Source: Eunapius fragilis (taxonomy: Eukaryota > Porifera > Demospongiae > Spongillida > Spongillidae). From it: 64,000 nt of DNA. The stretch is taken from contig OY811973.1 of NCBI GenBank assembly GCA_963681505.1, positions 9,415,419 to 9,479,418 on the forward strand. Direction: 5' to 3'. The notes under the pieces are model-generated. The model saw only the letters and a program-made list of their open reading frames with translations. It was not told the DNA's origin and did no database searches. Positions within the stretch are counted from its first letter, which is position 1; every line of letters starts with the position of its first letter. The position numbers and the translations under genes were made by a program. Of this stretch, positions 2,450-47,352 are shown piece after piece.

Positions 2450-3388
2450 AGCGCAATAACTCGGTCACATTGAGTAGCCGCGCCCACAAGAGAGTTTAAT
2501 AGTAAACATTGTTTGAGTGATTTTGATACCTTATGCATTCATTACCAGCATGTGAGCAACGCATACGTGAATACGTGTTATGCAATGGTGAGCAGATCAA
2601 ATAGTGTATATTGTATTCCTTTAAAGCAATAGATCTTTAAAGTTTAGTTCCACAAGGAAAAAACGCGTCGAATCAATTCTTCATTCCCTATTGATTTTTC
2701 GGTACGGCATATGTGTTACTAAATGTCGTGACAATTCAATAATTGATTTGACGCATTTTTTCCCTGTGGTCATGTGACCATCATATAATCTGCATGCCAT
2801 ATGTAGCACTATACAGTTTAAAAATGCCAATCTATGCCAGTGCACGTGCAAAGCTTTACAGGAATATTCGAGAAAAAGGTAATTATAATGTATATCATTA
2901 TGCGTGACATTGGTCCATTTCATAGATTCCCTTTTTGATAGTTTCAGAAGCCATACGTAATCCAATCAACTGTTAACTATGAGGCCAGCAGTGTGCTTTT
3001 TATAGAAAAGCCATGCATGTGCCCTGATGTGTGAAACCTAAAACCTGCAGCTTGAATTTGCTCTGACAAATTAAATCATCCGAGGCAGCACCCACGTACA
3101 CAGCCGATTAAACATGACAAACTGCACGATGGCTGCTGATTGTAAACATCTTGAACCTGGTGTAATGTGCTTTGATTCGTTCTGTCATTTGTGAATCCTT
3201 GGTTATACTATTGAAATTTCTTCACGTTACAAAATATGAATATTATAGCTGTATGCACATATAACCTGGTGCAAACACAGAAGTGTGAAGGCGCGTACTG
3301 AATAGTAACTGTACTAGAAACAAGCATGCGTGCAAATATGTATCGAGTTATGGCAACATCCTTCCAAAACTATTTATTTTGTATGTCT
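2450..3388. other. Intergenic, 3' flank of the Roc-COR gene, duplicated at 17 kb
   Basis: No gene seen. From about 2,940 to the CARD exon the sequence is recognisably similar to 17,010-17,690, for example the shared stretch GATGTGTGAAACCTAAAACC. The duplicated block therefore includes 3' flank as well as exon. Confidence 0.55.
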
Positions 3389-3748
3389 TCAGCAACTTAT
3401 TTGATATTTCTTGTCTTTCAAAATACGGAGGAAGACTTTGAATTTGTCATGGTCGTCAGAACTGAAAGTTCGTTCAACACCACTCATAAGAATCGTGGCT
3501 CCTTCCTTCTTCGTTCCTGCACTCAATGCGTGATCTCTTTCTGAATCTGAAATGATGCCTTCTGAGAACAGCTCAGCGGCTATGTCTTCAGGATTTATTT
3601 GATCAACCAGAGTAGCGTAATGCTTTCTGATGGTTTCTGTAAGAACATACGTAAAAAGTAATTGTACTCGATGATCATTAGAAACAATACATTCAAAAAC
3701 TAATGGTAATGATATTGCATGCTTAGACTCGCTCCCAGACCCAACATA

Positions 3749-3995: not shown

Positions 3996-4660
3996 ACATA
4001 CGCAGCTGCTGATTGATTACATCATTGCTGTATCAGGTTGGGGACGAGACTATTGACAATTATTGATGCGTTCATATTGAATTCGATTTGCGAGTTGCCA
4101 CTAACCTTTTAAGGGTTCACGTTGGTATTCTCGCAAAGGCTTGGCTTCAATCTTTTTTACAGCTTTAGTCATTTCCAGTCGTCTCAAATGATACAAAAGA
4201 TGTCTGCGAGCATCACTACCCATCATCTGTCTCCAAATCTTAAGATTCTCAAGTGTGTCTTCCTTGGCATCCGTCTCTTCCATCTTCATTTCAAGAGAAT
4301 GGCACAGTTTCCTCCAGCTCTCAAGATTCATGGCTTCAACCACTTCACAAACATCTTCATCAGATAAGCTGCCACCATTTTCGAAGTTCTTAGGCAGCTT
4401 TAACCACCATTTCTCTTCAGCGGATAAACCATATTCAAGACTTTTGCACAGGAGCTTCTCTCCGTGATATTTTGTTTCAGGAGTGAAGGAAACAAAATGA
4501 GGGTGTGGTTCTGCTGGTTCATGTAATAATTGCTTGCAGAGAAAAGAAGGATTATGGGAACGCCGGGGCACTGTGTAGAAAGGGTTAACTGTTATAATTA
4601 TATACAATAACTAATATAAAATTATATAGCAGCGTTAATAACTACGTTTAATTATTATTC

Positions 4661-4927: not shown

Positions 4928-6411
4928 TGGTGTTGGTATAGTATAGTTTATATGTTTTATTGTAGATCTCTAACTTACAGAAATAGACAATGTAACATAA
5001 TAACTATCTAAGAATATATACCCGGGATACCCCATTACGTTCTGACACTGCATGTGTTATGAACATACCTCCTTTATTCTCATCCTGACTTTTCTCGTCG
5101 TAGGTTCCTTCGATAAAATTGAACCATTCTTTCAATACACTGCTTAGTGTTTTGTCTACTGCGGCGAGAACATTTCTGCATGTCGATCCGAAGTTAGAAG
5201 TTTTGTAGTCGGTGCAGTAGTTTTGCCGTCCAATGCGAATGCTAATATACGACTGAGTGCTAGAAAGAGTCACGTGACTCACTTCATCACTCCCTATTTT
5301 GTAAAAGAACGATACTTGGTCACGAAGTATTGGAGCATTGAAGTTGATGTCAAAGCCAGTGCCTGGCTGTGCCAGATTCACCACCAACCTAACAAAACAT
5401 CCTGGGGGAACGTATTTTGACGCAAAGATGAAATACAGCGGAGCAGCTGAAAGCTTCATAAGCACACCTGTGATTGGTGAAACTTCATTGGCTATTTCAG
5501 TCGTACTGGCTGCCGGAAGTACGGAGGGCACAAAATACTTCGAACCATCTAGGTCAGTGATCGTGCATGGAACCTCCACTGCCAAGTGAAAGTTTTCAAG
5601 TAAATTCAACATTGCATCATCCAGCGATACGTTTAGATCAGTAAGTTCCTGAGATTTCGGCCATAGTTTTGTACTACACATGGATTTGACCAGTATACCA
5701 TATTTCTTTAAAAGTTCCCATTCAGGCTCATGAGTATCTTGAGGGAACTTACTTGGATCCAAATATTGTAGCTGTTCGATCAACCATTGTGGGTTAGAGA
5801 TAACAATCTCCTTCATGTGCTCTACATCATTGAAGTGCAGCAATGCTCCGTGTTCGTGATAAAAACGGAGCACGTCAGATAACTCACCGTTGCCTTTATG
5901 ATTGATGCCGCAAACTATTGCCAAAGCTGCAGCCTCTTGTAACGTTAGAAAAGGCCTCTCAAGTTTAGCAGTTGCCTGGGAAAATGCTTTTCGGAATAGC
6001 TCCCAACTTAATGCCACCCGAAACGTACATTTGTCAATAAATTTGTTTGCGGCTTGAACGATGTCTTTGCACTCATTAGCGCTCAGGTTTACAAACTTCA
6101 ATTCAAGCATGTCACGAACTGTATCCTGAAATCGAGATTCAACGTCATAGAATATTTTTTTACGAATTTCAGACTTTTTTTCTTCAATCAAGCTGTTATC
6201 GTGAGTCCCAACAATGAGTATCCTAGGACGAAATAGTTCCTTAATGTTTCGCTGTTTTTTATCAAGCGTGTGGTATAAACGATTCGTTATATTAATGCTG
6301 TCATTGATGTAGGCAATCCATTTACATATTTGCTCAGTATTATACTTAGATGCTTCGAATACAAGCACGAATAACGACCTCGCAGTGATGAATGCTGGTA
6401 GAATGTCTCCT

Positions 6412-6592
6412 CACTGTTAAAAAAAAGGTGTTACCGCAACACACTTAGGGGTGTTCGTATGGATATTTAAAAATGACACCCCCTGGGGTGTAGTGGTAAC
6501 CGCTCATGAGTGTTATGGCCAACACCCCTGAAGTGTAGCCAGTACACTCTATTGGGTGTTGACAGAGGTAACAATATCACGTATATTTACCG
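6412..6592. repeat. Left terminal and subterminal repeats of the 8.5-kb element
   Basis: Begins CACTGTTAAAAAAAAGG. Within about 180 bp come GGTGTTACC, GGGGTGTTCG, GGGGTGTAG, GAGTGTTATGG, the reverse CAACACCCC and GGGTGTTGAC. These are degenerate copies of one GGGTGTT motif in both orientations. Confidence 0.75.
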
Positions 6593-7129
6593 TAAATTGA
6601 TGGTCCCAACATAAATTAATATTAATAACTATACAACAACACGTTCAATTGATTTTAATAAAATGGTGATAAATAAATACAACCCATAAAAATAACACAT
6701 AAAGAAAAGTAGATGTCTTTACACGCTATAACGATCGAACAGGTTGTTTCTCTGTTCAGACACTAGAAAATCAAGAAAACTAATAAAGGACAGGTTACAG
6801 TACGAGAGATATCTTACCTTAAATCTTGGGTGCATGCAGCCGTCACGTTCGGGAAGCAAAGGAGACCATTCTGTAACAATAACAATGTCAGCCGTACTAA
6901 TCGCGAAGCTTACCTCGAAAGCTTGGTAGGGCATGTCCATTTAGTCTTGTCAACTCCGGGGCGGGGCGTATTAGTAACTTACATGTTTCCTTACGCAGTG
7001 TCCCATATAGTGCGGTAGCGTACGCTGTAGTAGTCGGGCAGCACGGTAGTAAAAATTTTCTTTGCGTATATTTGGCAGTCTACAGAGAAGTGGAGTTATA
7101 CAGGCATTCCGAACTGCTGCACTAGTATA

Positions 7130-8203
7130 CTCACCACGAAAATATCGCCACACTCTCTCCAAAGCGCTCAACTTTTTTTTTACTCGAACGAGGCATCGCT
7201 AGACGTGGTAAGAAAACAACGTATAAACCAAGCTAAAAAAATACAATGCAAACATACCTTTCACAAACAGCGCCATTAAAAGGGTCACGAACGTACACGA
7301 CCAAAAGTTTAAAACCGTTCCAAACCTGTTACCTGATTTGAATCAGACTGTTATCAAATACTATAAAGGTTGGGAAAAATATCCGTTTCAGATCTGGTGG
7401 AGTAATTTCCGATTCTTACCTGTACTACCACGATAATGCAAAACTGGTAACAGCCTGAATCGTGGGTGGTACCAGCGCCAAGTCAAATATTGTTCCGGTG
7501 ATACACGGGGGGAATGCGTGGTTTTGTCTCGTGATCGCTAATGTTAAATAAACGGATGAATGATTAATACATTCCATAATCACACGCAATACAAATTTAA
7601 ACAACAAAGCATATTCGTCCAGTCATGGGTATACACCAAAGCCTTCTCTCCTGATGCTTCTCTCTCTATCCTAGAGCTGGACCCTCAATCAAAAGTACAA
7701 CTGTCACTGCATTCATGGACTATAGAAACGGCTTGCTTGATCTGGCTGCAGTCTGCTGAGAATATTCTTTTCGTTATGCCAAGTAGTGGGCACTCATACT
7801 CGTCCAGCACTGGTTCACTATTCACAACAAAATCATCACATCCCTGAAGTACGCAGAATGATTCACCCGTTTCCAACTGACAGGAAGTCAAAAACAGGGC
7901 ATTCTTTGTCTACAAAAGATAAACTACTTGAAGTTACTGAGGTGACAAAACATACTATTTTACCTCTGAACAGAGCAGTTCAACAAAGTCTCCAGCATGA
8001 ACCAATCCACCATCTGCTGCAATAACCCCTTTGAACACTGCAACAAGGCTGTCCTCCATACAGTGGAAGAGTTCTATTCTAGTTGAGCTATCATGACGAT
8101 GCAGATCCTCAATGGTAGCACAGGAAAGGCCAATAGTATTGAGAACAACATGTTTGCAATACGTGTAGGGATTTTGAAAGGCGCTATAGCATAGAATGTG
8201 CAC
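7130..8203 (-). other. Unidentified minus-strand coding remnants inside the element
   Basis: Two stretches have protein-like composition: about 8,200-7,955 (ending GGLVHAGDFVELLCSEV) and 7,891-7,685 (CQLETGESFCVLQGCDDFVV to IVHECSDSCTF). They could be the C-terminal exons of a degraded transposase or of another captured gene. A short open stretch beginning MPRSSKKKVERFGESVAIF at about 7,187 stops at a GTGAGT donor. I cannot assign a function to any of them. Confidence 0.3.
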
Positions 8204-8959
8204 ATAAAAAAAACACTGACTAGTTTAACTGCAACTCACTTTCCTCAGTGCTCCAGGCTGATATATGCTCCTGTCGCCATTGAGTTCTATCATCGTAACA
8301 TTGTTGAAGAAATGTCATAGGAGTTGAATAAAATGTCTTTAAGCCACCACCACACCTAAATCAACATCAATGATAAGTGTTCATTAAACTGAGTAACACT
8401 TACTGGATGTTATCATCTCCATCACAAGCACACGTATAACGTAGATGCTGCTGCACAGCAAAATGACCCGAGAGGGAGCAAGGCGATTACTAAAAATATT
8501 CTGTGCTCTAACAGTAGCATTGAAGGATTCACACCTACAGAATGAGGAACATATTAATAACTACTTAGGAAAGAATAAAAGAAACGTACACACCTCTCTG
8601 CGGAAAATGCCGAACAAGGTCCCAAGTTAACCATACAATCCACTAGATGGAGTATTAGGTGGGCCTTCGGTTTATTCAGGCATTGTTTGTGTGCTTGACA
8701 TTGATGACAAAGTTCTCACAAATAGATTTCCACTCATGGTAGAGATGTGGAGAGAAATAGCTGCAATATGCTATTCGAAACACCTATAATAAAAAACATC
8801 ATAAATCAATCGTCATGGAGTTAAAATTTGTGCTTACCTTTGAAAAACTCAATAACACCTTTCTATCATCACTGCTCAAGTAAGGACTTAAGATAAAAAC
8901 AGACATTTGAGACCATCCTTTAAAGTCCCGTCCCACAAAGGAATATCTTGGTGGGGTTC

Positions 8960-9240
8960 ATCAGGGAAGCAGAATAACATGAAGGAGTGTGGAAGAGAGG
9001 GAGGATGTGTGAGAGGGAGTGTGAGTGGGAAAGGAGAGGGATGTGTGAGTGAGTAGGAAAGGGGAGGATGTGTGAGAGAAGAGTAAATTTGAGAGCAGGT
9101 GGAAGATGGGGTGTGGAGGAGTAGGTGAGACTGTCGAGGGTTGGTGGGAAGTTGAAGAAACAGCAGTGGATGGATGGTGGGAGAGGGAGGTGTGGGGTGT
9201 GGGAGGTAGCAAGAGCAAAGGTTAGAGATGGAGGGATACA
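8960..9240. repeat. Purine-rich low-complexity tract
   Basis: About 280 bp of degenerate GGGAGAGGGAGTGTG-type sequence next to the VPS35 fragment. Serine/proline/threonine-rich frames on the minus strand here are composition artefacts. Confidence 0.6.
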
Positions 9241-9258
9241 GAGTTCATAAACCCTTAC

Positions 9259-9489
9259 AGCTAAGCAAGGACGTTCTCAGCTCGTTCAGCATATTGGAGG
9301 CGTACTGAAGCGCATCCATCAGCTTATTGTTGTCCTGTAGCAGAAGACGTACTTTCAACACAAAAGAACATGACGACGCTCCTGAATCTCACCAAACATG
9401 TCTTCATCTCGAACGCATTCTTCTTCACTTGGTTTAGAGCTTCCGTAAGAAGCTTATCCTGGTCGTCCATTGCCATGACGTTTTGTTGG
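9259..9489 (-). pseudogene. VPS35: VPS35 N-terminal exon pair captured inside the transposon
   Basis: Two minus-strand exons, 9,489-9,393 (97 nt) and 9,334-9,259 (76 nt), join through a GTGAGA...CTACAG intron and end at a GTAAGG donor. The product reads QQNVMAMDDQDKLLTEAL, then KNAFEMKTCL, DNNKLMDALQYASNMLNELR and TSLLS. This aligns with the start of retromer subunit VPS35 (human DEQEKLL, FQMKRCLD, NKLMDALKHASNMLGELR, TSMLS). VPS35 is the large helical scaffold of the endosomal retromer complex and is about 800 residues long; only about 58 codons are here. No downstream exons follow: a low-complexity tract does. Both exons and the intron have intact splice signals, so capture was at the DNA level, not through mRNA. 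Confidence 0.85.
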
Positions 9490-9642
9490 CTGCAGATCTG
9501 ATCATGCATCATAAAATGTAACCTGAGCACACATTTTATAAGTGAACAGTATTACCGTAAGCCAAAATACAGCTGCCAGTAGCTGAAACACTAAAGGGGT
9601 TGGCAGACACAATAAAAACAGCGGCTCTCAAAACAAAACTGC

Positions 9643-10509
9643 CATTTTCCATAGATATTATACGGAAGGGATTGGAAACGGATCACGTGATGCAATACAA
9701 TGCATAGGCTGGCCTACGGCCTGTCACTGTAGGATCAATTAACAAGTTTTGCCACTGCGATTCAGATACTTTTTCGTAGAAAACCGGTCGTTGTGTTTAG
9801 TTTGAGGCTTTTTCCTATATTCTGTCACTTGCTTAAGAGGTATGGATATTATTAGATATGTTTTTATGACTGTAAATGATTTTAGACCCGAGTTTTTTTA
9901 AAGACCCGCGTTCCGTGTCTTTGCGAAGCCTTTGTGGGCGTGTAGGAAACGTTAGCGTTGTCATATTGGCTAGTTTATTGTAGAATCGAGTGGAGCTTCG
10001 TGAGACAAATCGAACTGGCTAGGTATTATCTCAAAAGCGCTTGGTGCACTTTATACGCCCACAACCAGTCTCATATCAAAATCTTTATTACCAACTTTTG
10101 TACGAGTGTACAACACGCATTTGAGATAATACCTAGCCAGTTCGATTTGTCTCACGAAGCTCCACTCGATTCTACAATAAAGTAGCCAATATGACAACGC
10201 TAACGTTTTCTACACGCCCACAAAGGCTTCGCAAAGACACGGAACGCGGGTCTTTAAAAAAACTCGGGTCTAAAATCATTTACAGTCATAAAAACATATC
10301 CATACCTCTTAAGCAAGTGACAGAATAAAGGAAAAGGCCTCAAACTGTACACAACGACCGGTTTTCTTCGAAAAAGTATCTGAAACCATAGATATTATAC
10401 AGAACTTGAATCCGCCATTTTATTTTATTTTTCCTGCATGGATGGAACCTGTTGATTGGTGTTAAAGACTTCCGTTTCCAATCCCTTCCGTATAAAATCT
10501 ATGCATTTT
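9643..10509. mobile_element. Nested long inverted-repeat element
   Basis: Left arm about 9,760-10,034 and right arm about 10,111-10,386 are near-perfect reverse complements; both contain the 20-mer GAATCGAGTGGAGCTTCGTG or its complement. They are separated by about 75 bp. An outer, shorter pair lies at 9,648-9,680 and 10,475-10,509 (CCGTTTCCAATCCCTTCCGT on the right). The arrangement is a hairpin element nested in another inverted-repeat element, or one element with a diverged subterminal part. No coding capacity is seen. Confidence 0.75.
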
Positions 10510-10571
10510 CCCTGTGCTAGTATCACGTGAGGGTGCACGGCTCAGTCGCCCAGGGCAACAGTGAAAACAAA

Positions 10572-10609
10572 ATGGCCGAAGGTGGCGTGCCGGTCGTTTT
10601 CCCATTTAC
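10572..10609 (+). other. Possible captured first exon
   Basis: ATG in good context (ACAAAATGG) opens a 38-nt frame, MAEGGVPVVFPF, followed at once by a GTAAGTG donor. It looks like a short 5' coding exon and lies next to the VPS35 fragment in the same transposon, facing the other way. I do not recognise the protein and no partner exon was found. Confidence 0.25.
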
Positions 10610-10679
10610 GTAAGTGGGAACGGAAACCATTGTGCTGCGTCAAAAAACAGCAGTCTTGCAATACTTCTACTGTATGTGT

Positions 10680-10798
10680 TGCATGTGTGTGTCTGTGTGG
10701 CGCGCGCGCGAATGCACATCTTCAGTGTGCTCTGGACATGTGTGTGTCTGTGTGGCACGCGCGCGAACGCACATCTTACAGTGTGCTCTGGACAACTC
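10680..10798. repeat. Two-copy 59-bp tandem repeat with TG/CG-rich core
   Basis: Two adjacent units each contain GTGTGTCTGTGTGGC, a GCGCGCGCG or CGCGCGCG core, and CAGTGTGCTCTGGACA. The alternating purine-pyrimidine core is Z-DNA-prone in principle. Confidence 0.7.
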
Positions 10799-11267
10799 TT
10801 GTCGAGGATTGATAATCGAGGTGAATTGATATCAAAATATAGACCCACAGATACAAACCTTGCACAACGGCCAGTCCGAGCGAGATACTGAACCTTGACT
10901 GACACCAATGCTGGTTCGTATTGTATTTCAGGTTTGAAACGAACTGGTATCATGCAATATTCTCAGCCTGAACCAGGGTTGTGATACCAGTTAACAACCA
11001 GACTGTTGATTTAAACACCCATGATTCAGACTGTATTTCATTCCCACACCAGACTGTATTTCACCACCAGGTTTGATTCAGACTGGTTACTTTTGGCTGT
11101 GTACGCGTGCTATTAAGGGTCACGCATGCGCAATGAAATAGACCCAGCTCAATGTTTTTTATCATTTAAAAAAAAAAGCCTAACCCACAACATGGATTCA
11201 AATAAAAAGTTGATCCAATTATCACATCATGCTGGTGCCAAGCTCTTGGAGGGGGATGGGCTACGCT

Positions 11268-13868
11268 GCATGAAGGGGGCATCCCCGTGAGATGGGGAGG
11301 AGGAAGAAGTCACTCAACCACGCCCATACAGTCACTTAACCAGTTCACCTACACAACCACACCCAGCCTCCTAGCCCACACATACTTACCAGTGATGCCC
11401 ACACATACTAACCAGCATGCCCACACATACGAACAAGTTGACCCACACTACTACCCTAACCAGTACACGTGTCCAGTGGACTCAGTGATTGGTTCCTCCC
11501 TCTTTCATGGGAAGTGAAGTAGAGGAGGAGGAGGGGGAGTCCTCACGACACCCTGGGAGGTGGTCATAGTTGTCATTGTCTAGACTGTGAGATCTTGGTC
11601 GCATGAAGAAAGCCGCGCCCCCAGATGAACTTCATGAAGAAAGGCTCTCAGAGGGGGGCATGGTCAAGTGGTGACAGTGGAGGGGGTATGCTCAGGTATG
11701 AGGAGTGATTGTTGGTGGAATCCTCTTCCGAACAGGCTCCGCTTGCTTTTCAGAGGTGGAGGTGAAGGGTGCACGGTTGTCCACGTGGGTCGTGATGTTA
11801 CAGGAGGTTCCTAGACTTTGCTGGTACACCTGGACCATAGGGCATTGCAAGGCAGCTGACTTGGAACTTATGAGCCTGAGGTTAGGAGGTGGTCAACACC
11901 TGTTCTCCTTGAGGGTGGAGGTGACGGCAACATGAGGTTTATCAGGTCGTGTATCTCGCTCACATGTGCTAAAGATGATTTAACTCCATCCACACCAACT
12001 CCCTCCATATGCAATTGGGGGTAGGGATCCTTGGTCTGACCTCCGCAGCATGAATCTCTGTGGAGGGAGCATTGAGACACTCAACCACACCTATACAGTC
12101 TCCTAATCAGTTCAACAACACAAATACACCCACAGTCTCCTAACCAATATACCCACACAACCACATGATCTCCATGGAGACCATACACATCCAAGTCACA
12201 TGATCCCCTCATGGCTACCTTTAGTGATGAATAGGGTGACAGTCTTCTGTACACGTGAAATGAGAACCTACCCAGCTATTGACTCACCTTTCAATGAGAT
12301 CACACCCATCACATGATCTCCATGGAGACCCACACATCCAAATCACATGATTCCCCCATGGCAACCTTCAGCATTGCCATGACAACATTTTTTAACCCTG
12401 GACAAGAGTCATAAAAAAATGTGTCCAAACTCTGTCACTGGTAGCCTACCCTTAAAGCAGGTGGGTAGATTCAATTTCATCCAGCATATTTCATGACCTC
12501 TGCTGCATGAAGGGGGCATCCCCGTGAGATGGGGAGGAGGAAGAAGTGTTGAGACACTCAACCACGCCCATACAGTCACTTAACCAGTTCACCTACACAA
12601 CCACACCCACAGTCTCCTAACCAGTATGCCCACACATACTAACCAGCATTCCGACAGATACTAACAAGTCGACCCACACTACCACCTTAACCAGTACACA
12701 CTCATGAATTGTACCTCAAGCTGCAGTACTAATGAATTAATTAGAAACATTTTTTTACTTACAGTTTAGTGGCACCAGCCCCAACCTTCCCTGTGGTACA
12801 GTCCCTGCACTCTCCTACAGCATACAATCCCACCCTTAAGATGTTGGTGGGTGTGGCCTTACATGTTTCCAGTGGACTCAATGATTGGTTCCTCCCTCTG
12901 TCGTAAGAGGTGAAGTGGAGGAGGAGGAGGGGGAGTCCTCATGACACCTGGGAGGTGGTCATAGTTGTCATTGTCTAGACTGTGAGATCTTGGACGCATG
13001 AAGAAAGCCGCGCCCCCAGATGCCCTTCATGAAGAAAAGCTCTCAGAGGGGGGCATGGTCAAGTGGTGACAGTGGAGGGGGTATGCTCAGGTATGAGGAG
13101 GGATTGTTGGTGGAATCCTCTTCCGAACAGGCTCCGCTTGCTTTTCAGAGGTGGAGGTGAGGGGTGCACGGTTGTCCACGTGGGTCGTGATGTTACAGGA
13201 GGTTCCTAGACTTTGCTGGTACACCTGGACCATAGGGCATTGCAAGGCAGCTGACTTGGAACTTATGAGCCTGAGGTTAGGAGGTGGCCAACACATGTTC
13301 TCCTTGAGTGAGGGAGGGGGTGGAGGTGGTGGTGACATGAGGTTTATTAGGTCGTGTATCTTGCTCACATGTGCCAAATATGATATCCACACCAACTCCC
13401 TCCATATGCAATTGGGGGTAGGGATCCTTGGTCTGACCTCCGCTGCATGAATCTCTGTGGAAGGAGCATTGAGACACTCAACCACACCTATGCAGTCTCC
13501 TAATCAGTTCAACAACACAAACACACACACAGTCCCCTAACCAATATGTCCACACAACCACATGATCTCCATAGAGACCATACACATCCAAGTCACATGA
13601 TCCCCTCCATGGCTACCTTTAGTGATGAATAGGGTGACAGTCTTCTGTACACGTGAAATGAGAACCTACCCAGCTATTGACTCACCTTTCAATGAGATCA
13701 CACCCATCACATGATCTCCATGGAGACCCACACATCCAAATCACATGATTCCCCCATGACAACCTTCAGCATCGCCATGACAACATTTTTTAACCCTGTA
13801 CAAGAGTCACTAAAAAATGTGTCCAAACTCTGTCACTGGTAGCCTACCCTTAAAGCAGGTGGGTAGCA
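11268..13868. repeat. Tandem duplication of a 1.2-1.4 kb unit inside the element
   Basis: Unit 1 (11,268 to about 12,480) and unit 2 (about 12,503-13,868) share long near-identical stretches, starting CTGCATGAAGGGGGCATCCC. The offset is about 1,235 bp at the start and about 1,397 bp from 11,690 on, because unit 2 has about 160 extra bases around 12,660-12,870 (or unit 1 lost them). Both contain repeated TCACATGATCTCCATGGAGA segments. Minus-strand open frames in both copies (around 11,868-12,080 and 13,087-13,485) show no recognisable domain, and I treat the unit as non-coding. Confidence 0.75.
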
Positions 13869-13964
13869 TTCGATTTCATGTTTGTCTTAAGTAGACATAT
13901 GTAGCTGCATAACTGTTAGCATATACCCATGTCAAGCTGACTAGTAAAATAATTTGAGGCCTAC

Positions 13965-14139
13965 CTTGAGCTACATGTGATAACATATGCATATGCGTCT
14001 TCAACATGAGTGGAGTCCAACACCTCTGTTTCGAGTCGACAATCCCATAGTCTTGCCTCAGTTCCAGTACATCCTACATCGTCTAACATAATGGGCTCTG
14101 TTCCTTGTCCAAAGGTTGCTACTGAGAAGCTAGTTCCTC
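13965..14139 (-). pseudogene. SRCR-domain exon fragment captured inside the transposon
   Basis: One 175-nt exon is bounded by a TTTGTAG acceptor and a GTAGGC donor. It encodes [20 protein letters not shown], then EARLWDC and [11 protein letters not shown]. The (I/W)-LDDV-x-C-x-G-x-E-x-x-L-x-x-C pattern is the C-terminal half of a scavenger receptor cysteine-rich domain, an extracellular ligand-binding module that is abundant in sponges. No other SRCR exon is nearby. It lies on the same strand as the VPS35 fragment and about 800 bp from the right end of the 8.5-kb element, so it is best read as a second captured host exon. Confidence 0.8.
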
Positions 14140-14639
14140 CTACAAACATTCAAGCATTGGCATATAAAAATACTTGTATCTGACAATGTATTAAGTATAT
14201 GTTCCCATGTCATTTTACTAGAGTGTGGTCTAAATAGAATCCAGATGGATTTAAATAACACCTTTACTGTCCAAGCCGTACTACTTAACATATACTCTCA
14301 ACACTACGCGGCATGCAGGATAATAAACAAGCTTGCATGCTGCTTGCATATTAACGCAAGTACCGGTCACCTTTGAATAAACACCGCGCGCGGCACATAC
14401 ATGAACACTGCAGGCAAGACTTCATAAACACAGCGAGGCTTTATATTTCACGTTAACAAAGCGAAGTTAAACATGCATGTATACAAACGCATTAGCATCA
14501 CGACATAGTCTACAAATCCATACCGACGAACGCCCGCGTGCCAAAGCAAGCGTACGTTAGACGTTTAGTACTCGTAAGTTGTGTGCGTGTATACCGTTAA
14601 GATAACGTTCGGCTTGCCTTTATAAGTCCAGATCGGCTG

Positions 14640-14943
14640 CCATATGTCATCTCGTAAACAACGCCCTCAATCCGTCAAAAGGTAATTATAAAAAAGGCTG
14701 GGAACCCCATATACACTCCATATATGTATATACTGGGGTGTAATGCGGTAAATCAGTGTTATGATAGCACACCTTTATTATGCCTTAACACCCCATTATT
14801 GGTGCCGTACGTTGCTAACACCCTACCATACTTTGCCTACACTCATAGATGTAAGCAGAACACCCTTGTGTGTTACCAAAACACCCCCTGGGCTGTAACA
14901 CTCCTGAGCTGTAACACCCCTCGGGCCTTTTTTTTTAACAGTG
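14640..14943. repeat. Right terminal and subterminal repeats of the 8.5-kb element
   Basis: On the minus strand this end reads CACTGTTAAAAAAAAAGG, followed by GAGGGGTGTTACAGC, GGAGTGTTACAGC, GGGGGTGTTTTGG, AAGGGTGTTCTGC, TAGGGTGTTAGC and GGGGTGTTAAGG. The motif matches the left end. Confidence 0.75.
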
Positions 14944-15821
14944 CTGCGAAGCCTTGCCACGAATCGTCGGACACATGAACCAGAGCATTCATAATGTTTG
15001 TGGGGTTGAAATGGGATCTTTCGAGTTTTTTTGTAGACTTCACTGTGAACAGTTTTAACAATTTCCTCTAGGCAGCCTAGCGTTTTTTTAATTTTACACC
15101 CAGTTCTACCACTGGTAGAAAGTACTAATTTGACTTTTGATGATAAATCTTTCAGCACACTACTTCCGCCATGGCTCTCGCTGTTTATAGTTACCCTCAG
15201 TGTCATTAACGCAAGCGTCTGGATTTCCTGATCTTTAGTCATTATCGTGAACGATCCATCTTCGTGTTCGCACAATGGGTAATGGCCCTTAGCTTTGACG
15301 CTATCACTCGAGAGTATTTCTTTCAATAAAGTAGACCTACCCGTTTCCTCTTCTCCAATCATCATGATTCGTCCGCACATCATGTCTGCAGTACCATATG
15401 TGATTGCGGCATTATAACTATACCTTTTGCTTCTTCTTTTAGACTTTGATTCTTCGGCGATGTCAGCACCATGCTGTCGCGGAGCGGGATAGTGGCTAAT
15501 ATCATCTTCATCTTTCCCGGCGGGATCGTGACCAGTATCAGGGTTTGTATGTGTGAAGGATTCTACTGCGGCTTTCGCCATGTTTAAGATCTTCGCCTCC
15601 TCAATTACACTCCCCCATACTTGTGGATCGATTTCCTGCTCTGCAACAGGAGTAACTATGTTGGAGGTTTTCGCCATGTCTAAGATCTTTGCCTCCTCAA
15701 TTACACTCTCACATACTTTAGGATCGATTTCCGGCTCTGCAATAGGTATGTTGGAATCGATTTCTTGAAGCTCTGAACTAGGAGTAACTTTATTGGTACC
15801 GGTGTAACAACAAACTCCCAT
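14944..15821 (-). pseudogene. Roc-COR protein, 5' exon with P-loop (interrupted gene)
   Basis: The likely start at 15,821 gives MGVCCYTGTNK, a possible N-myristoylation/palmitoylation signal (Gly2, Cys4, Cys5). Residues about 20-85 hold two copies of a 35-40 residue acidic repeat sharing EIDPxVxxSVIEEAKILxMAK. Then comes a Roc-type P-loop, IMMIGEEETGRST, in which the usual GK(S/T) lysine is arginine. Near 14,990 the reading changes frame: before it the frame reads KIPFQPHKHY, after it another frame reads NALVHVSDDSWQGFA. The latter fits the ALVHVSDxGGQP block of related Roc domains but with SW for GG. The exon is cut at 14,943 by the transposon, and its sequence resumes at 6,411. Frameshift plus insertion argue for a pseudogene. 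Confidence 0.65.
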
Positions 15822-16341
15822 ATCTGCAGCTGTATATAGGCTAGTCAATTGCAGGTTTATATGAATTATGTAATGCACAGCCTCATGACTACGAGATGCT
15901 GACGAGACACGACTGTATTCATGCATGCGCATGACATTAATGAGTGGAGGGATCAATTCAGCAATCTAAAGGTTCCTTGTATACACGTTGCAGCGGATGG
16001 TCCAAAATGAACTGCAGACTGATGCAGAATGTTTGAGCAGATAATCTCTTGTTTAAGGAATGAGGACTTTATAGGTATTTATTAGGTATATTGTAACTTC
16101 AAATATGGAATTATATGGAATGCAGACCACACATTGAATAAGGATATACATATAGCTACAATTGTAGTTGACTTGATTAGTCTTATAAATAGTGCGCAAT
16201 GCGCGGGGATTCAATGGATATAAATGAGCTAGGCGGAGTATTTCCGTACAATATAGATCAACGCATGGACAAAACAGCAAATGCATGGTTTAATAATTAT
16301 GATCCAGACTGGTAAAAGGTAAAAAAGACCCAACCTATTGC
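15822..16341. other. Intergenic, 5' flank of the Roc-COR gene
   Basis: No gene or clear core promoter identified. The reading frame stays open somewhat upstream of the chosen ATG. A TGCAG lies directly before it, so a further 5' exon cannot be excluded. Confidence 0.4.
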
Positions 16342-16635: not shown

Positions 16636-17009
16636 TTAGTACTGTTTTGTTTGATAAGTTTATCTGGACTTTAACCTTGAAGAAGGTTGTATTGGCCGTT
16701 TTTGATTTCGGACACTGTCACCCCCACCCCCCCTCCCAAATAAGGGCAAAATCAATAATAATCGGTCAAATTGCCCGTCCAACCCCGGCACGTGTGTTTG
16801 GCATCTGTACAGTGAAAGCTCAATTCAACTTTCTCACCCATCCAAAAAATCTAGCTATTCATGACCATGATCTTGTGCATCATGCATGGCCAAGATTCAA
16901 GATTCTTGGCCATTGTACACAAGGTCTTGTCCAAAATTATTTAATGTACTTACGGATTTTCACTACAATGGGGCGAAACACTATGCAATGGTTGCCATGC
17001 ATAATCCAA

Positions 17010-18130
17010 TTAGCTGTTACATATTTATAAGGTCAGCAGTGTGCAATTAGATAGATTAAAGCCATGCATGTGACCTGATGTGTGAAACCTAAAACCTGCA
17101 GTTCGAACTGGCTCCTGAGGCAGCACTCCCTTAGAACTTGCTCACATGTACAGCCGATTAAAGATGACGCACTGTAAAAACAGTCAATCCAAAACAAATA
17201 AGATTTCAATCGATGGCTGCTGATTGTAACATCATATTGCAGGGGACATTGTTCATCCAGCGGAACAACCTGATGTACTTCCAATCTGAAGTTGCCCCTT
17301 CTTATTATCCATGGCAGCAAAGACATCATCAGATTACTACTTGAGGATCACTACGTTCCTAACAATAGGGGGATCAAGCTGTGTAGCACAGGCCACACAG
17401 CTATGCATATATAACTTAAACCCGGTGTAATGTACTTTGATTGTTTCTGTCATTTGCAAATTCTTGGTTGTTCCAGTTGAAAAATTTATCAAGTCAGCCA
17501 ACGTTATATAATTACAAAATATGAATATTAGCTGCATGCACGGGCCATCGTACATATAAACCTGGTGTAAACACAGAAGTGTGAAGGCGCGTATACTGAA
17601 TAGTAAATGTACTAGAAACAAGCATGCGTGCAAATATGCATCGGGTTCTGGCAACAATTCAGTGCATCCTTTCAAACTATTATTTTTGCATGACTTCAGG
17701 AACTTGATACTTCTTGTCTTTCAAAATATGGAGGAAGACTTCGAATTTGGCACGTCGTCAGAACTGAAGGTTCGTTCAACACCACTCATAAGAATCATGG
17801 CTCCTTCCTTCTTCGTTCCTGCACTCAATGCGCGATCTCTCTCTGAATCTGAAATGATACCTTCTGAGAACAGTCCACTGGCTATGTCTTTAGGATTTAT
17901 TTGATCAACCAGAGTAGCGTAATGCTTTCTGATGGTTTCTGTAAGAACATACGTAAAAAGTAATTGTACTCGATGATCATTAGAAACAATACATTCAAAA
18001 ACTAATGGATAATGATATTGCATGGTTAGACTCGCTCCCAGACTCAACATACAACTGCTGATTGATTACATCATTGCTGTATCAGGCTGGGGACAAGTCT
18101 ATTGACAATTATTGATGCGATTCATATCTT
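17010..18130. repeat. Segmental duplication of 2.94-4.08 kb
   Basis: This block repeats the CARD exon, part of the intron behind it and the 3' flank of the Roc-COR gene. Both copies share ACTAGAAACAAGCATGCGTG and the whole CARD coding stretch. It lies about 1.2-2.3 kb upstream of the start of that gene in the same orientation, as expected for the 3' remnant of a tandem paralog. Confidence 0.8.
17721..17938 (-). pseudogene. Duplicate CARD exon with a 1-nt deletion
   Basis: The acceptor TTACAG is intact. The exon reads TIRKHYATLVDQINPKDIAS and onward as in the 3.4-3.6 kb copy, down to VERTFSSDD. One base is then missing relative to that copy (GACGACGTGCCAAATTC against GACGACCATGACAAATTC), so the frame runs VPNSKSSSIF and stops. 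The last 20 or so residues of the CARD helical bundle are lost. The upstream exons of this paralog are not found; beyond 18.13 kb the similarity ends. Confidence 0.75.
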
Positions 18131-18768: not shown

Positions 18769-18811
18769 TGCATAAGGGGGTGTCTCCAAACTATTTTGGA
18801 AAAGTTAACGT

Positions 18812-20632
18812 CATGATCATGTAGAGAAGTGTCCCATCTACCACATGATCATGATCATGTAGAGAAGTGCCCCATCTACCACATGAACATGATCATGTAG
18901 AGAAGTGCCCCATCTACCACATGAACTTGATCATGTGGAGAAGTGTCCCATCTACCACATGAACATGATCATGTAGAGAAGTGCCCCATCTACCACATGA
19001 ACATGATCATGTAGAGAAGTGTCCCATCTACCACATGAACATGATCATGTAGAGAAGTGCCCCATCTACCACATGAACATGATCATGTAGAGAAGTGTCC
19101 CATCTACCACATGAACATGGTCATGAAGAGAAGTGCCCCATCTACCACATGAACATGATCATGTAGAGAAGTGTCCCATCTACCACATGAACATGATCAT
19201 GTAGAGAAGTGCCCCATCTACCACATGAACATGATCATGTAGAGAAGTGCACCATCTACCACATGAACATGATAATGTAGAGAAGTGCACCATCTACCAC
19301 ATGAACATGATCATGTAGAGAAGTGCCCCATCTACCACATGAACATGATCATGTGGAGAAGTGTCCCATCTACCACATGATCATGATCATGTGGAGAAGT
19401 GTCCCATCTACCCCATGAACATGATCATGTAGAGAAGTGTCCCATCTACCACATGAACATGATCATGTGGAGAAGTGTCCCATCTACCACATGAACATGA
19501 TCATGTGGAGAAGTGTCCCATCTACCACATGAACATGATCATGTAGAGAAGTGCCCCATCTACCACATGAACATGATCATGTGGAGAAGTGTCCCATCTA
19601 CCACATGATCATGATCATGTGGAGAAGTGTCCCATCTACCCCATGAACATGATCATGTAGAGAAGTGTCCCATCTACCACATGAACATGATCATGTGGAG
19701 AAGTGTCCCATCTACCACATGAACATGATAATGTGGAGAAGTGCCCCATCTACCACATGAACATGATCATGTAGAGAAGTGTCCCATCTACCACATGAAC
19801 ATGATCATGTAGAGAAGTGTCCCATCTACCACATGAACATGATCATGTGGAGAAGTGTCCCATCTACCACATGAACATGATCATGTGGAGAAGTGTCCCA
19901 TCTACCCCATGAACATGATCATGTAGAGAAGTGCCCCATCTACCACATGAACATGATCATGTGGAGAAGTGCCCCATCTACCACATGAACATGATCATGT
20001 AGAGAAGTGTCCCATCTACCACATGAACATGATGATGTGGAGAAGTGTCCCATCTACCACATGAACATGATCATGTAGAGAAGTGCCCCATCTACCACAT
20101 GAACATGATCATGTAGAGAAGTGTCCCATCTACCACATGAACATGATGATGTGGAGAAGTGTCCCATCTACCACATGAACATGATCATGTAGAGAAGTGC
20201 CCCATCTACCACATGAACATGATCATGTAGAGAAGTGTCCCATCTACCACATGAACATGATGATGTGGAGAAGTGTCCCATCTACCACATGAACATGATC
20301 ATGTAGAGAAGTGCCCCATCTACCACATGAACATGATCATGTAGAGAAGTGCCCCATCTACCACATGAACATGATCATGTAGAGAAGTGTCCCATCTACC
20401 ACATGAACATGATCATGAAGAGAAGTGCCCCATCTACCACATGAACATGATCATGTAGAGAAGTGCCCCATCTACCACATGAACATGATCATGTAGAGAA
20501 GTGTCCCATCTACCACATGAACATGATCATGTGGAGAAGTGCCCCATCTACCACATGAACATGATCATGTAGAGAAGTGTCCCATCTACCACATGAACAT
20601 GATTATGTAGAGAAGCGCCCCATCTACCACAA
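18812..20632. repeat. 38-bp minisatellite, about 48 units
   Basis: The unit is CATGATCATGTAGAGAAGTG followed by YCCCATCTACCACATGAA. Variants (TAG/TGG, TCCC/CCCC/CACC, ATC/ATG) recur in blocks. A distinctive pair of units with a doubled ATGATC, followed by CTACCCCATG, occurs near 19,375 and again near 19,605, about 228 bp (six units) apart, indicating higher-order duplication. Each unit carries the palindrome CATGATCATG. The array ends about 110 bp from the stop codon of gene A. Confidence 0.95.
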
Positions 20633-39701: not shown

Positions 39702-41740
39702 CCTCCTCCTCCTCCTCCTCCTCCTCCTCCTCCTCCTCCTCCTCCTCCTCCTCCTCCTCCTCCTCCTCCTCCTCCTCCTCTCCCTCCACCTCTTCCTATC
39801 TTCCTTCATCCACCCATCCTCCTCCTCCTCCTCCTCTCCTCCTCCTCTCCTCCTCCTTCTTTTACTCCCTCTCATTTTCCCTCCTACCTTCCCTCCTATT
39901 ACACATAACACCCCTCCTCCTTTCTTTTGATTGCATCCACCCCTCCCCCTCCTCCTCCTCATCCTCCTACTTCTACGTTCCTACCTGTTGCACCTGTCCT
40001 ACCTGTTGCATCCTCCCCTCCTCCTTTCTTTTTCCCGTTGCATCCACCCCCAACTCTCTCCTCCCCCTCCTCTACGTCCTCCCCCTCGTCCTCCTCCCTC
40101 CTCCTCCTCCTACTCCCCCTCCTCTCCTCCCATCCTCCTCCTCTTACTCCCTCTCATTTTTCCTCCTACCTTCCTTCCTATTACACCTACCTCTCCCCCT
40201 CCTCCTTTCTTTTGATTGTATCCACACCTCCCCCTCCTCCTCCCCCTCCTACTTCTACCTTTCTACCTGTTGCATCCTCCCCTCCTCCCCCTCCATCCAC
40301 CCATCCTCCTCCTCCTCTCCTCCCCCTCCTCCCCTCCCTCCTCCTCCCCTCCTCCTCCTCCCTTCCCCCTACTCCTCTTACTCCCTCTCATTTTCCCTCC
40401 CACCTTCCTTCCAATTACACCTACCCTCCCCTCCTCCTTTTTTTGATTGCATGCACACCTCCCCTTCCTCCTCCTCATCCTCCTACTTCTACCTTCCTAC
40501 CTGTTGCATCCTCTCCTCCCCTCCTCCTCCTTCCATTCTTCCCGTTGCGTCCACCCCCACAACCTCCTCCCCACCTCTACTTCCTTCTCCTCCTTTCCCA
40601 CCACCTCCTCCTATCTTCCTTTATCCACCCATCCTCCTCCTCCCCCTCCTCTTCCTTCCATTCTTCCCGTTGCATCCACCCCCACCTTCTCCCCCCCTCC
40701 TCTACCTCCTTCTCCTTCTCCCCCTCCTCCTCTTCCTATCTTCCTTCATCCACCCATCCTTCTCCTCCTCTCCTCCCCTCCTCCTCCCCTCTCCTCCCCT
40801 CCTCCTCCTCCCCCTCCTCCTCCTCTTACTCCCTCTCATTTTCCCTCCTACCTTCCTTCCTATTACACCTACCCCTCCCCCTCCTCCTTTCTTTTGATTG
40901 CATCCACACCTCCCCTCCTCCTCCTCATCGACCTACTTCTACCTTCCTACCTGTTGCATCCTCCCCTCCTCCCCCTCCATCCACCCATCCTCCTCCTCCT
41001 CTCCTCCCTCTCCTCCCTCCCCTCCCCTCCTCCTCCTCCTATCTTCATCCACCATTCTCCTCCCCTCCTCCTCCTCTCCGTCTCCCCTCCTCTACCCTCC
41101 CCCTCCTCTCCTCCTCCCCTTCCCATCCCCTCCTCCGCCTCTTACTCCCTCTCATTTTCCCTCCTACCCTCCTTCCTATTAACCTAACCCCCTACTCCTC
41201 CTTTTGTTTTGATTGCATTCACACATCCCCTCCTCCTCCTCATCCTCCCGCTACTTCTACCTTCCTAACTGTTGCATCCTCCCTCTCCTCCCCCTCCTCT
41301 TCCTTCCATTCTTCCCGTTGCATCCACACCCACCTTCTCTCCTCCTCTACCTCCTCTTCCTATCTTCCTTCATCCTCCCCTCCCCTCCCCCTCCTCCTCC
41401 TCTCCCTCCTTTTCTTCCTATCTTCCTTCATCCACCCATCCTCCTCCTCCTCCTCCCCCTCCTCCTCCTCCCCTCCTCCTCCTCCTCCTCTCTCCTCCCC
41501 TCCTCTCCTCCTTTCTTTTAATTGCATCCATACCTCCTCCTCATCCTCCTACTTTTACCTTCCTACCTGTTGCATCCTCCCTCTCCTCCCCCTCCTTCCA
41601 TTCTTCCCGTTGCATCCACCCCCACCTTCTCCTCCCCTTCCTCTACCTCCTTCTCCTCCTCCTCCTCCTACCCTCCTCCTCCTCCTTCTACCTTTCTTCC
41701 CATTGCATCCACCCTCCTCCTTCTCCTCCTTTCCATTGTA
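39702..41740. repeat. Polypyrimidine satellite, left arm
   Basis: About 2.0 kb of CTCCTCCTC-rich sequence with a higher-order unit of a few hundred bp. The unit is marked by recurring anchors: CCCTCTCATTTTCCCTCCTA, CCTTCCTATTACACCTACC, TTGATTGCATCCACACCTCC and CTACCTGTTGCATCCTCC. The long proline/serine/leucine frames here are artefacts of this composition. Confidence 0.9.
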
Positions 41741-42430
41741 TAAATAAATGATAAGAGACATGTGTCGGAAGATACAATTCCTTATTTATCCAGCTTTAAA
41801 ACTATTGGTATTGTAAGTCAATGTGTTGTAAATTTGCAAGCACCCGGAATCATTTTGGCACTTCAGCATATATAATGTTCTAGCAATATAACCTTTCATG
41901 GGTTATTAAAAAGGTGACGATGCAACAACCTAGTAGGCACTGCCAACAATTAGGCAGATACATCAGATGTCCCCCCCCCCCCCCCTCCTCTTTTTCCCCC
42001 CTCTCCTTATTTATAGTATACTTTGTTTTTGGAAAGACCTTAGTGCTATGACATGCACGCATGTAGTTCAAAACTACTTGTTCTAACTTCCATGTAGAGC
42101 ATGTACAATGTACAAGGAACTTTGGATTCTACCATGTACCATTCTACCATGCTTGCTTGTCTAAGTAAACCACTGGCCACCCACAATCTGTACTGATAAG
42201 GGATAATAATATTCATAAAGGCTTATACCAACATACATTCCCTTGTGTAGAGCTCTAGAGTTTAGTTCTTGCACAGGCTTTGTATATAATCTCTTATAAT
42301 AGCCTTTTTCTAGTTGCATGTAGTTTGCACATCCCAAAAAATACATTCCACTGACTCCTAGGTGAAAACATATATATCGAGATGAACACTTCCTTTGAAA
42401 CAAAGTGGTTAATAATAAATACACTCCCTA
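41741..42430. other. Central spacer of the foldback element
   Basis: About 690 bp of ordinary base composition with no recognisable gene. A C tract followed by TCCTCTTTTTCC lies near 41,972-42,000. The spacer would form the loop if the arms paired. Confidence 0.6.
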
Positions 42431-45400: not shown

Positions 45401-47352
45401 GAAGTAGGAGGATGAGGAGGGGGAGGGGAGGAGGAGGGGAGGAGGAGGAGGAGGGACGAGGAGGAGGGAAGGAGGAGGATGGGAGGAGGATGGGTGGATG
45501 AAGGAAGATAGGAAGAGGAGGGAGAAGAGGAGAGGGAGGTAGAGGAGGGGAAGGAGAAGGTGGGGGGTGATGCAACGGAAGAATGGAAGGAGGAGGGGAG
45601 GATGCAACAGGTAGGAAGGTAGAAGTAGGAGGATGAGGAGGAGGGGAGGATGCAACGGGTAGGAAGGTAGAAGTAGGGGAGGGGAGGAGGGAGGAGAAGG
45701 TGGGGTGGATGCAACGGGAAGAATGGAAGGAAGAGGAGGGGAAGAGGGGAGGATGCAACGGGTAGGAAGATAGAAGTAGGAGGATGAGGAGGAGGAGGGG
45801 AGGTGTGGATGCAATCAAAAGAAAGGAGGGGGTAGGTGTAATAGGATAGAAGGTAGGAGGGAAAATGAGAGGACTAAGAGGAGGGGAGGAGGGGAGGAGG
45901 AGGAGGAGGGGAGGAGGAGGGAGTAGGGGAGGAGGAGGGGAGGAGGAGGATGGGTGGAGAAAAGAAGATAGGAAGAGGAGGAGGGAGAGGAGGAGAAGAA
46001 GGTAGAGGAGGGGGAGGAGAAGGTGGGGTGGATGCAACGGGAAAAATGAAAGGAGGGAAGGATGCAACAGGTAGAAAGGTAGAATTAGAATGAGGAGGAG
46101 GAGGAGGGGGAGGTGTGGATGGAATGAAACGAAAGGAGGAGGGGTAGGTGTAATAGGAAGAAAGGTAGGAGGGAAAATGAGACGGAGTAAGAGGAGGAGG
46201 AGGGGAAGGAGAGGAGGAGGAAGGGAGGAGGAGGGGAGAATGGGGAGGAGGATGGGTGGATGAAGGAAGATAGGAGGAGGAGGGGGAGGAGAGGAGGAGG
46301 ATGGGTGGATGGAGGGGGAGGATGCAACGGGTAGGAAGGTAAAAGTAGGAGGATGAGGAGGAGGGGAGGTGTGGATGCAATCAAAAGAAAGGAGGAGGGT
46401 GAGGGGTAGGTTTAATAGGAAGGAAGGTAGGAGGGAAATGAGAGGGCGTAAGAGGAGGAGGAGGAGAAGAGGATGGGAGGAGGAGGGGAGGAGGAGGAGG
46501 GGAGGAGGAGGAGGGGAGGAGGAGGAGGGAGGAGGAGGAGGGGAGGAGGATGGGTGGATGAAGATAGGAAGAGGAGGAGGGGGAGAGGAGGAGGGGAGGA
46601 GAGGAGGAGACAGGAGGAGAGAGGAGGAGGGGAGGAGGAGGATGGGTGGATGAAGGAAGATAGGAAGAGAAGGAGAAGGAGGTAGAGGAGAGGGAGGAGA
46701 AGGTGGGGAGTGGATGCAATGAGAAGAATGGAAGGAAGAGGAGGGGGAGGAGAGGGAGGAGGGAGGGATGCAACGGGTAGGAAGGTAGAAGTAGGAGGAT
46801 GAGGAGGAGGAGGGGAGGTTTGGATGCAATCAAAAAAAGGAGGGGAGGGGTAGGTGTAATAAAAAGGAAGGTAGGAGGGAAAATGAGAGGGAGTAAGAGG
46901 AGGAGAAGGGGAGGTGAGGAGGAGATGGAGGAGGGAGGAGGAGGGGAGGAGGATGATGGGTGGATGAAGGAAGATAGGAAGAGGAGGAGGGGGAGGAGGA
47001 AAAGGAGGTAGAGGAAGGGGAGGAGAAGTTGGGGGTGGATGCAACGGGAAAAAGAAAGGAGGAGGGGAGGATGCAACAGGTAGGAACGTAGAAGTAGGAG
47101 GATGAGGAGGAGGAGGGGGAGGTGTGGATGCAATCAAAAGAAAGGAGGAGGAGGGGTGTTAGGTGTAATAGGAAGGTAGGAGGGAAAATGAGAGGGAGTA
47201 AAAGGAGGAAGAGGAGGGGAGGAGGAGGAGGGAGGAGGAGGAGGGGAGGAGGAGAGGAGGGGGAGGGAAGGGGAGGGGAGGAGGAGGATGGGTGGTTGAA
47301 AGGAAGATAGGAAGAGGTGGAGTGAGAGGAGGAGAAGGAGGAGGAGGTAAGA
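42431..47352. repeat. Polypurine satellite, right arm
   Basis: About 4.9 kb of GGAGGAGGA-rich sequence with the complementary anchors (GGTGTGGATGCAATCAAAAG, GGTGTAATAGGAAGGAAGG). A block of about 1.67 kb starting near 43,430 is repeated almost exactly starting near 45,105, which explains much of the excess over the left arm. Purine/pyrimidine mirror-type tracts of this length can adopt triplex (H-DNA) structure. Confidence 0.9.

Follow-up and report, generated by a model that had tools for sequence, protein, structure and literature searches.

The window analysed here is a stretch of 64,000 nucleotides (C3:9415419-9479418) in an assembly of 24 contigs and 219 Mb. It carries fragments of two host genes, VPS35 and SRCR, inside transposon sequence, and a first-pass annotation made from its letters had read both as the cargo of one transposon. 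The N-terminus of VPS35 was encoded on the minus strand by 97 nt (9393-9489) and 76 nt (9259-9334) with a 58-nt intron between them (9335-9392), exactly as the annotation had drawn the two exons. Compared with the VPS35 chains in PDB, this fragment gave a best E of 7.5e-16 over residues 9-59 of the solved protein, and it matched PF03635 of Pfam with E 1.3e-13 and 50.8 bits (cut-off 35). The stretch 13965-14139 (175 nt) matched the second half of the SRCR domain (PF00530, E 1.2e-6, 29.1 bits, cut-off 26.1). Both homologies are real and far beyond chance, and the two family names given in the annotation stand.

The outer element occupies 6412..14943 and lies between parts of a Roc-COR/Death-type host gene (features given without a strand have none assigned). 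It starts with CACTG at 6412, ends with CAGTG at 14943 (CACTGTTAAAAAAAAGG...CCTTTTTTTTTAACAGTG), and is flanked by a CT target-site duplication at 6410..6411 on the left and 14944..14945 on the right. The terminal pattern CACTGTTAAAAAAAN{0,4}GG was found 75 times forward and 76 times in reverse in the genome, and the reversed-pattern control was found 0 times in either direction. A direct repeat of 2 bp, varying in sequence, was present at 11 of the 12 outer copies for which both flanks were read (11 fetched copies and the window copy). CACTA/EnSpm elements carry CACTR in their terminal inverted repeats (TIRs) and duplicate 2-3 bp of target. The CACTG...CAGTG ends and the 2-bp repeats of the outer element agree with both, which suggests a CACTA element, as judged from ends and target duplications only. 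Plant-like ends of the form CACTACAAGAAAAA gave no signal (5 scattered matches versus 14 in the control). Among the matches listed, neighbouring opposite ends were mostly about 4.1-5.0 kb or 5.3 kb apart, and other pairs were spaced at 3.1 kb, 8-10 kb or more than 15 kb. Relatives of 8-10 kb between ends of the outer type include C9:3934247-3943524 and C10:4619215-4629479. Much of the interior of the outer element in the window is made up of two tandem repeats of about 1.4 kb (11256..13866), which are 88-98% alike piece by piece.

A second element, named B, was delimited inside the outer element at 7294..11103 (both TA included). It reads TA followed by CACGACCAAAAGT on one side and ACTTTTGGCTGTG followed by TA on the other, and its ends are TACACGACCAAAAGT... 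(left) and ...ACTTTTGGCTGTGTA (right). A DNA search with 9240-9540 found 16 places, namely 15 element copies (the window and 14 others) and the parental VPS35 gene. The 15 places beyond the window were fetched as 9.9-kb loci and compared with it. In fourteen of these loci, the match to the window extended to either side of the VPS35 piece (inside 7294-9650 and 10504-11103); a number of them, such as L043, L045, L048 and L051, are shortened or rearranged. The fifteenth, L055, matched only over 8950-9650 and 10520-10675. Since the 14 loci share 7294-11103 around the VPS35 piece and L055 shares only the captured stretch, 7294-11103 is a separate element. At its left end, 13 of the 14 rows (13 loci and the window) aligned from the first base, and at its right end 12 of 14 rows aligned to the last base, with differing flanks at both. 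L051 had no row in the left-end alignment, L048 none in the right-end alignment and L055 none in either.

Two outer copies, L020 and L023, read through the B site with a single TA, which is an empty site; therefore, B was inserted into the outer element at a TA. The window copy of the outer element is 8.5 kb long because it holds B (3.8 kb). Two SRCR-bearing outer copies (C6:648264-652984 and C1:7016124-7020854) measure 4.7 kb end to end, which is the length of the window copy minus B. These data bear on the reading that a single CACTA element took both the VPS35 and the SRCR exons. Both fragments do lie within one pair of CACTG ends, but VPS35 is flanked by B sequence at 14 further places, the empty sites of the B-free copies L020 and L023 contradict such an element, and SRCR-bearing copies have the length expected without B. 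We consider this reading very improbable. The assignment of both fragments to one element is accordingly given up: VPS35 belongs to the nested B and SRCR to the outer element, and the two differ in ends, target duplications and copy sets.

B is itself interrupted by a third element. This foldback element (9650..10503) has long inverted repeats and is bordered by a 7-bp target duplication, CATTTTC, at 9643-9649 and 10504-10510. The insert was absent from the same site of B in L042, L047, L049 and L054, and L042 has another change slightly beyond that site. B also carries, at 7609..8536 on the minus strand, degenerate exon-like remnants of a transposon protein, which gave 172 genome matches among the best 150 of 334 candidates. 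The DNA matches of these remnants showed exon-like spacing, and a Pfam scan of the remnant protein gave no match.

A copy of B free of VPS35 was found on C2, outside the 16 VPS35 places. It matches B of the window to 8944 and again from about 10738, and it holds 5.4 kb between the matching parts, of which about 3.3 kb was read (L069, L070 and L076). This interior contains minus-strand stretches such as VPLILFSDDTSGNKSKKW...RYCRVCE and, by eye, a C2H2-like stretch. The VPS35 piece of the window thus stands in the position of transposase-like exons in the C2 copy. In a second VPS35-free copy, on C9 (L068), the match reaches 8753 and resumes at 10782 only 17 bases on. In an outer copy, the C2 copy (C2:5185380; L074, L070 and L075) occupies the very TA used by B of the window (7294). 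This site, empty in L020 and L023, may be a hot spot or may have been subject to gene conversion. The CMCT clade of transposons is characterised by CA..TG ends and target duplications of 2-5 bp. With CAC...GTG ends, a TA target, a weak tnp2 match and a C(2)C motif seen by eye, B would fit this clade.

A profile search of the genome with PF03635 gave 19 matches. Eight of them lie in C14:875174-879257 on the minus strand and together make up most of the protein; the remaining 11 are short (profile 21-59, the stretch of exon 2), lie at element copies and each contain a stop. All genome matches to the rest of VPS35 fall in this one C14 gene, most of which is within L055. This parental gene alone has the other VPS35 exons, and their absence from the element, which the annotation had reported, is borne out. 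The window and L055 aligned over about 900 bp with only small indels besides the foldback. Identity to the parent over the captured stretch was 96.4% for the window (836 positions) and 94.6-96.9% for the 14 other copies.

The first part of the captured VPS35 locus is 8945..9649 (minus strand), defined by contiguous homology to the parent in L055 and by its boundary against the VPS35-free L069. It contains 2 nt of exon 3, intron 2 (8947-9239), exon 2 in its parental extent (9240..9334, with a 2-bp deletion), intron 1 (9335-9392), the coding part of exon 1 (9393..9476, MAMDDQDKLLTEALNQVKKNAFEMKTCL) and upstream region. The second part, 10511..10671 (plus strand), completes the upstream region and enters a divergent neighbour gene, of which it has the first coding codons (ATG at 10572); the start of this gene, on the other strand of the VPS35 piece, reads MAEGGVPVVFPF.... 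The capture amounts to about 866 bp, with small deletions in the upstream stretch. The 58 codons first noticed are thus present within a larger piece that also includes the upstream region and the codons of the neighbour. The best Pfam match of the neighbour gene was AAA_33 (E 0.075), and a further piece of it gave no Pfam match. A more distant stretch of L055 may resemble NDUFS6.

Relative to the parent, exon 2 has lost 2 bp in all 15 element copies, which causes a frameshift. An 8-bp deletion in the exon of the neighbour gene recurs in each of the 14 copies aligned there, the window among them (it falls within a longer gap in L053; L045, in which the stretch is split, was left out of this alignment). 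Near the 2-bp deletion, a change of CC to TG creates an apparent donor at 9258/9259 in 13 of the 15 copies, with L051 and L052 differing. In the parent, coding continues at this point (LLSPKGYYEL), and exon 2 ends at 9240, where its donor GTATCC survives. The shared changes and junctions across copies argue for a single capture of VPS35. In a FastTree of the captured stretch, the parent was placed beside L051 with support of 0.87, and L051 retains more of the right-hand sequence of the C2 copy.

At the left VPS35 junction (breakpoints are marked by a slash), the element reads GGAAT/ATCTTGG, the C2 copy GGAATTATAG and the parent CTCATATCTTGG, so that 2 bp (AT) are shared. This breakpoint (8945, minus strand) is at most 2 nt from the parental border of intron 2 and exon 3, where the next PF03635 match starts. 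At the right junction, the parent reads TACTTCTACT/CTATTGAAGC, the element TACTTCTACT/GTATGTGTTGC and the C2 copy ...GTGTGTATGTGTTGC; one to four bases may be shared, depending on how one mismatch is read.

The SRCR piece was followed in the same way. In a DNA search with 13870-14260, the best 40 of 103 candidates comprised the window and 39 further matches, each extending across the captured piece. A protein search that scored the best 150 of 391 candidates placed the most similar host SRCR genes among the matches scored in a cluster at C5:10.16-10.42 Mb (best protein identity 78%). Two exons of this cluster, L071 and L072, showed 91% and 88% DNA identity over the aligned parts, and both share with the piece 21 nt of the intron before the exon, with one base differing in L072.

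The limits of the piece were given by L073, a 5.3-kb relative of the outer element that is free of SRCR and has the same ends and a TG duplication. Identity between L073 and the outer element of the window is 80.8% (left end) and 69.2% (right end); the interior of L073 is mostly different and includes an open stretch of 104 codons. L073 probably represents the state of the outer element before SRCR was captured. Its empty site reads TTTTTC ATATG TTATCACATGTAGCTCAAGG, and the site in the window reads TTTTT ATATG (CCAATGC...GAAGACGC) ATATGC ATATG TTATCACATGTAGCTCAAGG. From this comparison, the captured piece is 13995..14160 (166 bp, minus strand), consisting of 21 nt of intron with its acceptor and 145 nt of exon (13995-14139). 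The last 30 nt of the 175-nt exon first noted, together with its donor, are transposon sequence shared with L073, and only the 145 nt remain as SRCR. A complete parental exon is ruled out for the same reason. The intact splice sites reported earlier are therefore a mixed set: those of VPS35 intron 1 and the acceptor of SRCR come from the parents, and two of the called donors (9258/9259 and that of SRCR) do not. Compared with L072, the piece has a 5-bp insertion and an 8-bp deletion; as a result, the frame is shifted over 9 codons and a cysteine (GAC TGT in L072) is lost. We take this to be a conserved SRCR cysteine.

From the window alone, one could suppose that both fragments are what is left of host genes or pseudogenes that stood here and were hit by transposons, and not cargo at all. 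This has practically no probability, because the fragments recur with the same adjoining element sequence at 14 and at least 39 other places, respectively, with different outside flanks where these were read. The local pseudogene reading was dropped on account of these dispersed copies. Host sequence was copied at the DNA level, lies inside transposons and was spread by transposition. In both B and the outer element, sequence that is not of transposon origin stands between the ends of a TIR element. Parents exist elsewhere in the genome, since the comparison with parental genes that had been suggested led to VPS35 on C14 (96.4%) and to the SRCR-like cluster on C5 (88-91%), the exact SRCR gene not being fixed. 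Introns were retained (introns 1 and 2 of VPS35 and 21 nt of an SRCR intron). Transposition after capture is seen in the 2-bp duplications of different sequence at 11 of 12 outer copies and, for B, in the different flanks, the TA ends and the empty site. Capture by TIR elements at the DNA level is supported by the parental loci, the introns kept, the empty sites and a copy that probably predates the capture, and the annotation's central idea of gene-fragment capture is upheld. Taken together, the locus is very probably a three-layer nest of DNA transposons, in which the outer element and B are independent Pack-TIRs, each with one captured host piece.

We propose that the 166-bp piece of SRCR intron and exon entered the outer element at an ATATG site, and that the element later reached at least 40 places. 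In B, about 866 bp of the 5' end of VPS35, standing where another copy has a 5.4-kb interior, would have spread to 15 copies. One VPS35-bearing copy of B would then have landed in the outer element of the window, so that the two captures were joined by nesting. The copying step was probably template switching in gap repair or replication; the junction traits cited for it are the 2 bp at one VPS35 junction and the ATATG repeat at the SRCR junction. Mobilisation would have depended on transposase supplied in trans.

Several points weigh against this interpretation. One outer copy, L062, has no perfect 2-bp duplication (CA versus CG). The transposase of the outer element was not found, and none was seen in the window copy. 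The tnp2 match in the C2 copy of B was weak (PF02992, E 8.3e-4, 19.1 bits, cut-off 28.6) and came from one of three transposase pieces scanned. We infer that the C2 and C9 copies of B are pre-capture forms and not later derivatives, and for the C2 copy the need for this step counts here as well. With the C2 copy at the same TA, a fresh insertion of B in the window and gene conversion into an older composite cannot be distinguished. The right VPS35 junction shows little microhomology, and most nodes of the copy tree are weak. For SRCR, a cluster of similar genes, from which two exons were fetched, stands in place of an exact parent.

The comparisons with known systems draw on parts of the cited articles. 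Tan et al. (2021, PMC8277862) scanned 100 animal species (81 vertebrates and 19 invertebrates) and described 370 Pack-TIRs in 55 of them, with 87.2% in hAT and Tc/mariner elements. Four multicopy Pack-TIRs in reference genomes and a multicopy Ssk-FB4 family in fly populations were reported, and microhomology (median 2 bp) was found at one breakpoint or more in 67.6% of cases. The CAPSL case took a piece of 5' UTR, and Ssk-FB4 took an upstream region and most of a gene. The words sponge and Amphimedon are absent from the main text of that article. The present captures resemble these Pack-TIRs in having host DNA between TIR-element sequences, an identified parent, 2 bp at one VPS35 junction and post-capture transposition visible from different target sites. 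They differ in that two multicopy cases (15 and at least 40 places) occur in one genome, that relatives without the captured piece are still present, and that the carriers are a CACTG-ended element and a TA-target, weakly tnp2-like element, whereas the published ones are mostly hAT or Tc/mariner. The annotation knew of no such capture in sponge CACTA elements; for animals in general, that novelty falls away, since animal Pack-TIRs had already been published. A search of the open-access literature on sponges with transposon gene capture or gene fragments found no report of such capture, as judged by titles and the beginnings of abstracts. On the sequence evidence, the captures are a new case of a published kind, the animal Pack-TIR, and unusual in copy number.

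As in plant Pack-CACTA and Pack-MULE elements (PMC13317346), gene pieces lie inside elements with usable ends and were mobilised. The plant Pack-CACTA model, in which two neighbouring elements with complementary terminal deletions are joined around chromosomal DNA (PMC13317346), fits less well because VPS35 replaces an interior and SRCR is a small insertion at a 5-bp site. SmTRC1, an animal CACTA element, has 2-bp direct repeats in 7 of 14 copies (PMC1636069); the outer element is like it in its 2-bp repeats, a kinship suggested by ends and target duplication only. The fungal ESTA, Plavaka and EnSpm elements of the CMCT clade have CA..TG ends and a C(2)C motif, and ESTA is EnSpm-like with TA duplications (PMC12730594). 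B, whose transposase was read in part, resembles ESTA in its CAC...GTG ends, TA targets and, by eye, RYCRVC in a tnp2-like stretch.

The host gene around the outer element is represented on one side by an open frame with COR-A (5004..6368, minus strand, PF16095, E 1.3e-11) and, further on, a Death domain (4101..4607, minus strand, Pfam E 1.7e-6). On the other side is an open frame (14823..15956, minus strand) with a P-loop-like MIGEEETGRSTLL by eye and no Pfam match over the cut-off, which is probably part of the interrupted gene. When the flanks were joined with one 2-bp repeat, no stop interrupted the frame on the COR-A side at the site or over about the next 40 codons; therefore, the outer insertion was probably in an exon. 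The open frame with the P-loop-like stretch does not continue the COR-A frame; this requires an intron or a frame change between the two and complicates a simple picture of the host gene. Two stretches similar by eye, 3000-3660 and 17000-18050, one of them beside the interrupted Roc-COR gene, are perhaps the ends of two related genes. Elsewhere in the window are a long tandem array at 18810-20630 (unit of about 38 bases, by eye) and, at 39927-47137, a long stretch of low complexity whose open frames, present on both strands, reach 1101 codons and consist of Pro, Ser and Leu repeats.

Both pieces are probably passengers, because the VPS35 frameshift is in all 15 copies and the SRCR piece of the window has 9 codons out of frame and a cysteine lost. 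It is conceivable that the pieces are under selection, VPS35 as a mobile bidirectional promoter or SRCR as an exon for host genes. The stretch between both divergent start codons was captured, though with small deletions; the window still has intron 1, the donor of exon 2 and the acceptor of SRCR; and 22 of the 24 full-length matches of at least 93% identity have an SRCR frame without stops. These stop-free frames are weak evidence of use, since the copies are similar, so probably young, and open frames in them carry little weight. With the universal frameshift, the 8-bp deletion in all 14 aligned copies of the neighbour-gene exon and the lost cysteine against it, selection appears unlikely. 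Equally doubtful is the more specific proposal that what B took was the bidirectional promoter region between VPS35 and its divergent neighbour, along with the first exon of each, which would make the 15 copies mobile promoters with a usable splice donor. If true, it would explain why the VPS35-bearing B multiplied, and host promoters carried by transposons would be actively supplying new transcripts in an early-branching animal, provided that the host is such an animal.

Capture of gene fragments by transposons is well known in plants and has seldom been reported as multicopy in animals. Most Pack-TIRs in animal reference genomes are single-copy, and their origin is left to inference (PMC8277862). 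The present case indicates that, where elements are nested, one locus read on its own can give two captures the appearance of a single event. With a parent, piece-free relatives, empty sites and many copies in one assembly, and with two captures, the junctions can be read and models of capture can be tested.

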